Source: a virus. From it: a stretch of DNA of 22,720 nt. A model generated the notes under the pieces. It did no database searches. It was not told the DNA's origin and was given only the letters and a program-made list of their open reading frames with translations. Made by a program: the position numbers and the translations under genes. The stretch covers positions 1 to 22,720 of the IMG/VR virus record IMGVR_UViG_3300039149_000013, one strand, 5' to 3'. Of the stretch, positions 1,852 to 7,582 are shown one piece after another (the stretch's first letter is position 1; every line of letters starts with the position of its first letter).

Positions 1852-1855
1852 ATTT

Positions 1856-1928
1856 TTGGAAAGGGGGGATTCGAACCACCGACCCACGCATTCAAAGTGC
1901 GTTGTTCTACCAACTGAACTACTTTCCA
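1856..1928 (-). tRNA. tRNA-Gln (TTG)
   Basis: The acceptor stem TGGAAAG/CTTTCCA is perfect. The anticodon stem ACGCA/TGCGT carries the loop CTTTGAA with anticodon TTG. The D-arm is normal (GTTC...GAAC). The T-arm GGTGG/CCCCC has one internal U-C mismatch, around the normal loop TTCGAAT. The CCA end is not encoded. Confidence 0.88.
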
Positions 1929-1930
1929 TT

Positions 1931-2069
1931 TAATGGGTATAGGATTCGAACCTATGAAGCCCAGTTAAAACACAGTGTGCTTACTACTGTACAATAACTT
2001 CAAGCTTGTAGGGTAAGTTTAAGCTATTTCTAACTCCTACTGCATTAAGCCAGACTCTGCCAACCCATT
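1931..2069 (-). tRNA. tRNA-like element, anticodon unresolved
   Basis: The ends are those of a tRNA: a perfect 7-bp acceptor AATGGGT/ACCCATT (2069-2063 with 1938-1932), a D-arm GCA...TGC with GG in its loop (2060-2042), and a perfect T-arm ATAGG-TTCGAAT-CCTAT (1955-1939). The middle is not normal. Immediately after position 26 a perfect 5-bp stem GTAGG/CCTAC (2040-2036 with 2012-2008) holds a 23-nt loop instead of 7. The region where the variable loop should be is 52 nt long and folds as a long arm: AAGC/GCTT, AGTTA/TAACT and ACAGT/ACTGT. The whole is 139 nt, against about 73-95 for tRNAs. It could be a class II (Ser/Leu/Tyr-type) tRNA with insertions, an intron-bearing tRNA, or a tRNA mimic. 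I assign no anticodon. Confidence 0.6.
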
Positions 2070-2100
2070 GTATTTTTCTTTTTTATTCGGCATTCTTGAT

Positions 2101-2520
2101 CTACAAACAGGGGATTTTTTTTGGTAACTCCATCCAAAATGCAATTACCTTTGTTTCTCCAGACCAAGAACATTCTTTTACGTCAGCCATACTTTGTCCA
2201 CCGCAATAAATACAACTTTCCCATCCCTGTGTATTCCATCGCTCGGTATCATTTTCATATTTCATTACTGCTTGTTGACCATTTTTTAACTGAACTAATA
2301 TAGGACGGTCTTTTGGTGGCTCTTCTTTTGCAACGTCTATCCACTCACTTGGGTTTTCAGTTTCTTTTGGTTCATCACGTTCTAAAATATATTCTGCAAG
2401 AAAATTTAAAAGGCGATTTCTTCTAGAAGTAAACTCTATAGGATCGCATATCAATTGAGTACGTTCGTAAGCTATTTTTAAATATTCATAACTTAAACTA
2501 TTTATACATTTTTTTTTCAT
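2101..2520 (-). CDS. DUF551-like phage protein
   Basis: A 139-residue protein. Residues 60-133 follow the DUF551 pattern: WIDVAKEEPPKDRPILVQLKNG near the beginning and a closing aromatic segment VIAFWMELPK, where the family usually has a WxPLP-type end. The first 50 residues are a helical, basic N-terminal extension. A C-x-x-C pair (residues 103-106) lies inside the domain. DUF551 proteins are common in phage accessory regions and have no known biochemical function. No strong ribosome site precedes the ATG at 2520; a GGA lies 12 nt away. It follows the zinc-ribbon gene by 21 nt in the same direction, so it may be read from that transcript. Confidence 0.7.
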   Translation of the reverse strand: MKKKCINSLSYEYLKIAYERTQLICDPIEFTSRRNRLLNFLAEYILERDEPKETENPSEWIDVAKEEPPKDRPILVQLKNGQQAVMKYENDTERWNTQGWESCIYCGGQSMADVKECSWSGETKVIAFWMELPKKIPCL

Positions 2521-5470: not shown

Positions 5471-7582
5471 ATGTCTTTATTTCCAATTTTAGATACCGGT
5501 TATCAAATAGATGGAGATCGTTCAGTTCAGGAAATGATGGAGTATTATTACTCTCAATCAATTCAAATTAACCAATCTTTTTGGTCTGAAGCAGATATTG
5601 ACACTAGATTCTTAGCTGGAGATCAAACCCTTTGGAATGATATCTATGGGAATCTGCCTGCTAACCGAAGAAAGCAGTTCAACTTCAACCGTATCCGCCG
5701 TGTCATCAATATGATTACGGGATACCAAAGACAACATCGCCTTTCGACTATCGTTACACCTACAGAATCTTCCGATCAAGATGTTTCCGATCAGCTATCA
5801 AAAGCTCTTTTTTGGGCTAACAGAAATGCCAATACTTTAGAAAACATATCAGATGCGTTTTATGGTTCATGCACTACTGGGATGAATCTTTTATCCATTT
5901 GGATGGACTATAGAGATGATCCCATAAACGGAGATATTAAGGTTGACAATGTCGCTTATAATGAGTATTTAATTGATCCGTACTTCAAAAAAAAAGATTT
6001 GTCAGATTGTCGGTTCTTATGGAAGAGAAACTGGCTTTCTAAAACAGAAATTGCCTCTATCTTACCCGATAGAGCGAATGAAATTGAAGATATGCAGTCT
6101 AGAGGATGGAGAGATGGCAAGTTTCAGTACATGCCTCAATCCTACAACTACGCTATGCAGGATCTTTTAACCTATGACGAATTTTGGTATTTAACCTATC
6201 GAAAGAGAAAGCTTTTAGTAGATAGAGAAACAGGTCAAACAATGGAGTGGACTGGTGATGATGACAACTTGGCCTTGTATAAGAGACATTTCCCTTCTAT
6301 CACTACAGTGGATCAACAATGCCCTACTGCTAATCTTGCTATTACTGTCAACGGTAGGACTATGTATAATGGGTCTAATCCTATGGGCATTGATAGGATG
6401 CCTTTCGTCCCTGTTTTGGCTTATTACATGCCTGAAATCCCTTATTTTCCATATCGTTGTCAAGGGGTGGTCAGGGGATTACGGGATTCTCAATACCTTT
6501 ATAACCGAAGAAAAGTAATTGAGCTTGATATCCTTGAAAGTCAGATTAACTCTGGTATTAAGTTTGCTGATGATGCACTTGTAAACCCGAAAGATGCCTT
6601 TTTAACAGGTCAAGGCAGATCTCTTGCTATTAAAGGGGAAGCTGTTATTAAATATGGTGGCCTAGATGGTGCTGTTAAGGAAATTCCCGCACCTTCCGTT
6701 CCTAGCTCTATGATGGAGCTTTCTTCAATGTTAGCTAAAGAAATCCAAGAGATTTCAGGTATTAATGAAGAGCTTCTTGGTACTGCTACCGATGATAAAG
6801 CTGGTATTCTCTCTATGCTTCGTCAAGGAGCTGGTTTAACCACCCTTCAGATCCTATTCGATCAATTAGATTTCGCCCAGAAGGAAGTTGGGAAGATATT
6901 CATTGACCTGATACAAAAGAATTTTTCACCCGGAAAGATTCAAAGGATCATTAATGAGGAACCAGCGCCTGAATTTTATAATCGAAATTTTGGGAAATAC
7001 GATTGTGAAGTTGAAGAAGGTCTTAACACGGCTACTCAGAAACAGCTCCAATTTGCTCAACTACTTCAACTCCGTCAGCTGGAAGTTCCTATCCCAACTT
7101 CTCTCCTTATCGAAGCTTCTACTCTTCAGAACAAAAAACAACTTATCGAAGCATTACAGCGACAAGAGCAACAGGCTTCAGAAATGGAGAATGAGAAGAA
7201 AAAACTAGAGATGTTAATCAACCAGGCCAAGATCGAAATGATGGAAGCAAAAGCTACAGCCGATCAAGGACTTGGTATAGAAAGATTGGCACGTGTTCAA
7301 GAAAATAAAGCCCTTGCCGTCGAAAGAATGGCTAATGCGGATAAAGATCTCGCCGATTCAATTCTTACTAGAGTTAAAGCAGCTAAAGAGATTGAAGAAA
7401 TGGATATTCTTAACGCTGAAAGAATACTTAAGATCGTGGATACCTTAAAAAGACAAGAAGAAGCTGAAAACGAAGCCTCTATCCAACAATCTCAAAATTT
7501 AGGACAAAATCTATTTAATGAGATAACAAATTCAGGGAACCAAACAAATAACCAACAACCTACGGAACAACAGGTGATGTGA
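5471..7582 (+). CDS. Portal protein, P22-like
   Basis: A 703-residue protein that would form the twelve-fold portal ring at one head vertex, through which TerL pumps DNA and to which the adaptor binds. The N-terminal 550 residues have the look of P22-type portals: a long alpha/beta wing domain with FNFNRIRRVINMITGYQRQHR near residues 70-90 and an ISGINEELLGTATDDKAG stretch near 430. Residues of about 553-660 are a long charged coiled coil (NKKQLIEALQRQEQQ to KRQEEAENEA), matching the barrel extension of P22 gp1, which is 725 residues long. A glutamine/asparagine-rich tail follows. AGGA lies 4 nt before the ATG. Confidence 0.85.
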   Translation: MSLFPILDTGYQIDGDRSVQEMMEYYYSQSIQINQSFWSEADIDTRFLAGDQTLWNDIYGNLPANRRKQFNFNRIRRVINMITGYQRQHRLSTIVTPTESSDQDVSDQLSKALFWANRNANTLENISDAFYGSCTTGMNLLSIWMDYRDDPINGDIKVDNVAYNEYLIDPYFKKKDLSDCRFLWKRNWLSKTEIASILPDRANEIEDMQSRGWRDGKFQYMPQSYNYAMQDLLTYDEFWYLTYRKRKLLVDRETGQTMEWTGDDDNLALYKRHFPSITTVDQQCPTANLAITVNGRTMYNGSNPMGIDRMPFVPVLAYYMPEIPYFPYRCQGVVRGLRDSQYLYNRRKVIELDILESQINSGIKFADDALVNPKDAFLTGQGRSLAIKGEAVIKYGGLDGAVKEIPAPSVPSSMMELSSMLAKEIQEISGINEELLGTATDDKAGILSMLRQGAGLTTLQILFDQLDFAQKEVGKIFIDLIQKNFSPGKIQRIINEEPAPEFYNRNFGKYDCEVEEGLNTATQKQLQFAQLLQLRQLEVPIPTSLLIEASTLQNKKQLIEALQRQEQQASEMENEKKKLEMLINQAKIEMMEAKATADQGLGIERLARVQENKALAVERMANADKDLADSILTRVKAAKEIEEMDILNAERILKIVDTLKRQEEAENEASIQQSQNLGQNLFNEITNSGNQTNNQQPTEQQVM

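Follow-up and report, generated by a model that had tools for sequence, protein, structure and literature searches.

The virus record analyzed here, taken at its full length of 22,720 bases and referred to below as the window, carries terminase, portal and head genes and a tRNA cluster in which ARAGORN calls tRNAs for Gln, Ile, Glu and Asn. Within this cluster, on the minus strand, lies an oversized tRNA-like element (Table 1). A normal tRNA-Gln(UUG) begins only 2 nt past its end and, hence, a transcript shared by the two would have to be cut as a tRNA is, right at the 3' side of the element. ARAGORN does not call the element in the window, and comparison with covariance models, as proposed in the preliminary description of this locus, places it below threshold for the Rfam tRNA model; at a relaxed threshold its T-arm alone scores, with 14 bits. 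No Rfam tmRNA match was obtained in the window, which bears out the earlier statement that the element lacks a tmRNA layout and led us to reject that identity; one viral contig considered below (L092) does carry a tmRNA according to Rfam. An Rfam match of the element to Bacilli-1 (E 0.45) was judged to be due to chance. Also on the minus strand, positions 1787-1851 of the window hold a Cys-like tRNA (GCA) with its D-arm shrunk to about AGG-GTAA-CCT, which is found by Rfam with a D-arm deletion and missed by ARAGORN.

Table 1. The tRNA-Ser-like element, its predicted parts and the adjoining tRNA gene, in window positions.
Feature	Position	Strand	Basis or remark
Normal tRNA-Gln(UUG)	1856..1928	-	ARAGORN, Rfam
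Whole element, tRNA-Ser-derived, 139 nt including discriminator A at 1931	1931..2069	-	sequence and fold
5' acceptor strand AATGGGT	2063..2069	-	7/7 Watson-Crick with 1932-1938
D-arm GCAGAGTCTGGCTTAATGC	2042..2060	-	with T8 G9, a 21-mer as in normal viral tRNA-Ser; similar to annotated phage tRNAs
Anticodon-position stem, 5' strand GTAGG	2036..2040	-	partner CCTAC 2008-2012
Inner hairpin AGTTA-GAAA-TAGCT, GNRA loop, inside former anticodon loop	2022..2035	-	fold
3' bulge, 9 nt, TAAACTTAC; final five CTTAC (2013-2017) complementary to V-arm loop	2013..2021	-	
Anticodon-position stem, 3' strand CCTAC	2008..2012	-	sequence and fold
V arm, 52 nt, three segments AAGC/GCTT, AGTTA/TAACT, ACAGT/ACTGT	1956..2007	-	sequence and fold
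Apical loop of V arm AGTAAGCAC; GTAAG 1980-1984, proposed kissing partner of CTTAC 2013-2017	1977..1985	-	
T-arm ATAGG-TTCGAAT-CCTAT	1939..1955	-	sequence; T-arm match at relaxed Rfam threshold
3' acceptor strand ACCCATT	1932..1938	-	sequence

Read along the minus strand, the element has T8 and G9 after the acceptor, A26 between the D-arm and GTAGG, and a single unpaired C in the V arm ahead of the T stem. Every pair of the acceptor and T stems is Watson-Crick, and the features of a decoding tRNA that can be recognized comprise the acceptor, D- and T-arms, T8, the GG of the D-loop and the TTCRA of the T-loop. A 7-nt anticodon loop with U33 and an anticodon was looked for as well, and 23 nt (AGTTAGAAATAGCTTAAACTTAC) were found in its stead between GTAGG and CCTAC. 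RNAfold reproduces the acceptor, the anticodon-position stem, the three-segment V arm and the T-arm, and draws the D-arm somewhat differently. The preliminary description had reported intact, paired acceptor, D- and T-arms with a 5-bp stem at the anticodon position, a 52-nt variable region in three segments and no readable anticodon in the normal place; all of this holds on the minus strand, the variable region both by direct reading and by RNAfold. The 23-nt anticodon loop reported at the same time is correct in length and can be refined in structure, for it need not be open and can fold into the inner hairpin and the 3' bulge of Table 1. The fold energy of the whole element is ordinary for its composition (RNAfold, z -1.27, with 22 of 200 shuffles equally good), and the V arm alone gives a z of -1.18.

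The 21-mer made up of T8, G9 and the D-arm (TGGCAGAGTCTGGCTTAATGC) is present in exact form in nine other viral contigs and belongs, in all nine, to an ordinary tRNA-Ser gene, whose V arm is short and whose anticodon loop is ordinary as well. A segment of 29 nt, comprising the acceptor end and the D-arm, matches an annotated phage tRNA at 96.6% identity (blastn, E 8e-4). Judged from these matches, descent of the element from a tRNA is beyond chance, and since the 21-mer always lies within a normal tRNA-Ser in the nine contigs, the element is built on a phage tRNA-Ser. With the class II tRNA-Ser of bacteria and phages it shares a D-arm identical to that of the nine viral genes, a 7/5 acceptor-T branch and a long V arm; unlike them, it lacks an anticodon arm with a 7-nt loop, has a V arm of 52 nt instead of roughly 14-18, and carries A as its discriminator, where G is usual, making its serylation doubtful. 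A long V arm also likens it to allo-tRNA, selC-type tRNA-Cys and tRNA-Sec, non-canonical class II tRNAs in which the V arm and the anticodon stem are lengthened (PMC7609411). These, however, possess 8/4, 9/3 or 13-bp branches together with a readable anticodon (PMC7609411), and allo-tRNA and tRNA-Sec were rejected as identities for the element on account of its 7/5 branch, theirs having 12 or 13 bp divided as 8/4, 9/3 or 8/5.

Close relatives of the element were sought by several routes, and none was found in the viral-contig scans. A terminase-based scan of viral contigs returned no relatives, the portal relatives (best 63% and 50% identity) contained no odd tRNA-like element, with no tRNA whatever in these two, and blastn against annotated phages, with either the element or two related oversized elements as query, recovered only D-arm and T-arm pieces of tRNAs. 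The homologue search envisaged in the preliminary description thus failed in respect of close relatives and succeeded in revealing oversized tRNA-Ser-like elements in unrelated phages. These came from scans for viral contigs in which the D-arm and T-arm of a tRNA-Ser are spaced too widely for a normal tRNA. At spacings of <=83, just 37 stretches were detected in 2.9 million viral contigs; wider spacings also pick up tandem tRNAs, and tRNA gene fragments and rearranged tRNAs (e.g. L165 and L180) are likewise among the matches. About 25 distinct oversized elements remained in viral contigs once only those with acceptor and T stems paired perfectly, or nearly so, were retained, and some oversized relatives score with the generic Rfam tRNA model. 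The matches from one scan of genome contigs comprise tRNA-Ser genes of archaea with introns of the ordinary kind, some tRNAs that are rearranged or masked, a Bacteroidales prophage copy (L187) and a family from Streptomyces and Saccharothrix. Rare as they are, the oversized elements are shared by unrelated phages, by a Bacteroidales prophage and, in Streptomyces, by linear plasmids and 29 of 247 genomes. In many of these elements the apical loop of the V arm is complementary to the region that replaces the anticodon loop.

Several arrangements among these matches may be recorded in their own right. Contig L006 has three oversized tRNA-like elements in a row ahead of normal tRNAs (7086-7515, plus strand), the third holding a Cys-like GTTGCAAA hairpin, and L007 is nearly the same. 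The prophage-like contig L187 bears two adjoining oversized elements beside an HNH-like gene (1855-2112, minus strand); a AGGAGTTA / GGGAGTTA..(A)TAGCCC-like hairpin is common to the second of these, to L049 and to the window. A separate family of oversized, class-I-like tRNAs occurs in viral contigs (L119 8292-8406, L134 5929-6043, L145 4886-5003, L074 8391-8506 and L054 12196-12314). Its members show a hairpin that is displaced, for instance ATCCTGTTAAGGAT, and a GACAGCA motif that recurs. Odd anticodon loops were also encountered in class II tRNAs of the serine type (L060 650-749, L077 5559-5662, L051 742-846 and L297 on the minus strand), the loops presenting GUC (Asp codon), GGU (Thr codon) and, twice, CGA without U33. 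Finally, L086 (843-1156), L085 (2694-2800) and L062 (5830-5937) have an identical acceptor and an almost identical T-arm (AGTCAGG..CAGGTTCGAATCCTGTCCTGACT) and differ in their D-arms, as if an outer module of acceptor and T-arm had been exchanged.

The complementarity between loops is best documented in Streptomyces, where a stand-alone tRNA-Ser-like RNA gene, mostly in one copy per genome, is found in the 29 genomes and in linear plasmids (loci L266-L295, L186, L210, L219, L223, L238, L241, L258 and L262-L265); two viral contigs, L091 and L051, are placed in this family by score. Its members have about 12 bp in the stem at the anticodon position, and the 6-nt loop of this stem is complementary to that of the V arm. 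With a covariance model (R1) built without this kissing contact, 39 sequences were found and aligned, in which 96.9% of the cells of the kissing helix are paired and five of its six pairs undergo two-sided changes (e.g. AGGTCC/GGACCT, AGGGCC/GGCCTT, AGACTC/GGGTCT, GTGCCT/GGGCAC and AGGCTC/GAGTCT). This pair count constitutes strong evidence for the contact. The 5' hairpin of the Streptomyces-type RNA (GCGGGA..TCCCGC) is conserved, about five covarying pairs lengthen its acceptor helix, and its gene is preceded by a TACCCT-like promoter motif. This RNA resembles the window element in its tRNA-Ser-like core and in the pairing of its anticodon-loop region with the V-arm loop, and differs from it in the 12-bp stem, the extended acceptor helix and the 5' hairpin; model R1 gives no match to the window element up to E 1.

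A second type, from phages, comprises nine elements (L086, L128, L151, L176, L166, L170, L063, L169 and L092), all of them devoid of an anticodon stem, in which the V-arm loop pairs with the 5-7 nt that directly follow the D-stem. Seven different complementary pairs are seen in this type (CTAGG/CCTAG, TTAGG/CCTAA, CTAGG/CCTGG, CATACA/TGTATG, AACCG/CGGTT, CTCAAT/ATTGAG and GCAACA/TGTTGC), so that covariation of the contact is encountered in two sub-types, and the viral element L299 has the loop pair GCGATA/TATCGC. Across 18 lineages, with the window left out, loop complementarity exceeds that of shuffled loops with a Fisher p of 2e-10, a value that is only indicative because loops were assigned by eye from predicted folds after the pattern had been seen and because lineages of one type are in some cases related.

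Within the window element, CUUAC of the 3' bulge is complementary to GUAAG of the V-arm loop, a pairing of 5 bp, the least accepted for such a contact, for which, in this single sequence, p is 0.012-0.014 if the 9-nt bulge is considered and 0.026 if the whole 23-nt loop is allowed, in which case GCTTA/TAAGC scores slightly above CTTAC/GTAAG. The same layout is present in the L006 element L006b, with an outer stem, a GAAA hairpin, a 3' bulge ending in GAGGT and a V loop with ACCTC; RNAfold favours a different nested fold for it. L177, L179 and L301 have the stem layout of the window with unconvincing loop complementarity. For this 3'-bulge sub-type closest to the window (L006b, L177, L179 and L301), and leaving the window itself out, complementarity is not significant (Fisher 0.18). 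Practically no loop complementarity exists in L006a and L179, and L006a, at first considered the nearest relative of the window element, was set aside since its loop complementarity is not significant. A kissing contact in the window element is plausible by analogy with its relatives. This likely contact, like the recurrence of oversized tRNA-Ser-like elements in other genomes, had escaped the preliminary description.

These comparisons bear on whether the element is a decaying pseudogene, that is, a phage tRNA-Ser whose anticodon loop and V arm took up insertions and which is now drifting. The unexceptional fold energy is in keeping with such a history, as are the tRNA fragments and rearranged tRNAs among the scan matches and the fact that the window element has neither a close relative nor covariation of its own. 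Yet its acceptor differs from those of the nine tRNA-Ser genes at most positions while keeping 7/7 pairs, which speaks against simple decay; the T stem is perfectly paired too, the insert folds into ordered helices, and unrelated phages contain oversized elements of related plan, two sub-types of which show covariation. We consider a pseudogene unlikely, and the view of the preliminary description that a decayed tRNA is the less likely case is upheld by the acceptor, which does not suit a simple broken copy.

Were the element instead a dedicated aminoacyl donor, charged by SerRS or LeuRS and feeding a non-ribosomal reaction as cell-wall pseudo-tRNAs do, the retention of acceptor, T- and D-arms and of a V arm set off by a single unpaired nucleotide would be accounted for. 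Against this, A73 and A1-U72 are poor serine signals, no aminoacyl-transferase gene was recognized among the window genes searched, and a comparison of the gene neighbourhoods of the Streptomyces elements revealed no shared, conserved neighbour gene, which together render the proposal improbable. Pseudo-tRNAs of this sort are known (PMC3399842), and the pseudo-tRNA tRNA-Other of Bacillus cereus resembles the window element as a tRNA-like element with roles outside translation; it differs in having a Trp anticodon, and no oversized V arm or arm-to-arm contact was seen for it in the text consulted (PMC3399842).

Decoding, whether conditional or after splicing, finds less room still. A tunable tRNA, with a hidden anticodon masked by the V-arm loop and freed by a factor or a modification, would agree with the position of the masked segment within the former anticodon loop and with the nearly normal aspect of some elements from the same scans (L051, L297). 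It is nonetheless quite improbable: the window element cannot form a 7-nt loop with U33, elements of the L086/L063 type have no anticodon stem at all, and the Streptomyces type has one of 12 bp. The unusual decoding contemplated in the preliminary description finds no support for the first two of these reasons. An intron-containing tRNA that yields a normal tRNA-Ser on splicing, be the intron of the bulge-helix-bulge kind or small and of a new type, is very improbable. A drawing is possible in which AGTT/AACT form a 4-bp helix flanked by the 3-nt bulges AGA and TAC, and archaeal tRNA-Ser genes with true introns turned up in the same scan; those introns look different, however, and the best bulge-helix-bulge drawing leaves a spliced loop AGTTAGC with G, and not U, at position 33. 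Splicing would also leave a V arm of 52 nt, and an intron cannot account for the phage type that has no anticodon stem. The earlier suggestion of a new type of intron tRNA is accordingly unsupported, while its companion remark, that the element is too short for a group I intron, is correct: 23 nt is far below the size of group I or II introns, a reading rejected on that ground.

The element keeps the parts needed for RNase P, for 3' trimming, for CCA addition and for recognition of the tRNA shape, and the codon-reading part is absent, from which we infer a stable, non-decoding tRNA mimic. Our preferred reading, to which we assign a probability of about 0.45, is that it is a non-decoding RNA derived from tRNA-Ser, matured like a tRNA and probably engaging a tRNA-binding host protein or a tRNA-targeting defence. 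By its sequence, the element retains the acceptor, D- and T-arms of a phage tRNA-Ser, lacks an anticodon arm with a 7-nt loop and U33, and has a V arm enlarged to 52 nt. As covariation shows in related elements, the segment in place of the anticodon loop would pair, in the window too, with the V-arm apical loop (CUUAC with GUAAG), so that the arms may dock and no anticodon is presented. The RNA would be co-transcribed with the tRNA cluster, excised by RNase P and 3' processing, provided with a CCA that is not encoded, and persist as a stable tRNA-shaped molecule. During infection it might then occupy a tRNA-binding host protein, this being the least certain step; the most likely target would be a tRNA-targeting defence nuclease or toxin, for which the mimic would compete with its V-arm loop paired and the usual anticodon-loop target replaced. 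The comparative evidence agrees best, among the options raised in the preliminary description, with a mimic engaging tRNA enzymes. A regulatory RNA that owes its stability to tRNA ends is also possible.

Defences that cut tRNAs cleave either the anticodon loop or, in tRNA-Tyr, the V loop (retron-Eco7 and Septu), and phages counter them with tRNAs of their own (PMC11555353, PMC13096335). Like these, the window element would be a phage-made tRNA from a tRNA cluster, with a V loop of the sort that nucleases can attack; the anti-defence tRNAs (PMC11555353, PMC13096335) are ordinary decoding tRNAs, whereas the element would be a non-decoding mimic. Rfam 15 contains no family for a contact between anticodon region and V loop, and no tRNA-like RNA with such an arm-to-arm contact is described in the open-licence full texts searched; relative to that literature, there is a real chance that the class of tRNA-like RNA with this pairing is new. 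The recurrence of similar RNAs in unrelated phages and Streptomyces suggests tRNA look-alikes of an undescribed and probably non-decoding kind. A bolder reading, which we hold to be less likely than not, is that the window element belongs with them to a widespread undescribed class in phages and in accessory or mobile DNA of bacteria, whose members have a V-arm kissing contact that either takes the place of the anticodon arm or locks it, and would act as uncleavable tRNA mimics in conflicts over tRNA.

Standard tools overlook such genes, as the silence of ARAGORN and Rfam on the window element illustrates. The Streptomyces family, with its covarying contact and mostly a single copy per genome, offers a model system for a direct test. 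Phage tRNA clusters are usually taken to supply codons or to replace tRNAs cut by host defences; if the reading proposed here is true, a recurring tRNA shape that keeps its processing features without a codon reader would mean that some phage 'tRNA genes' are not for decoding.
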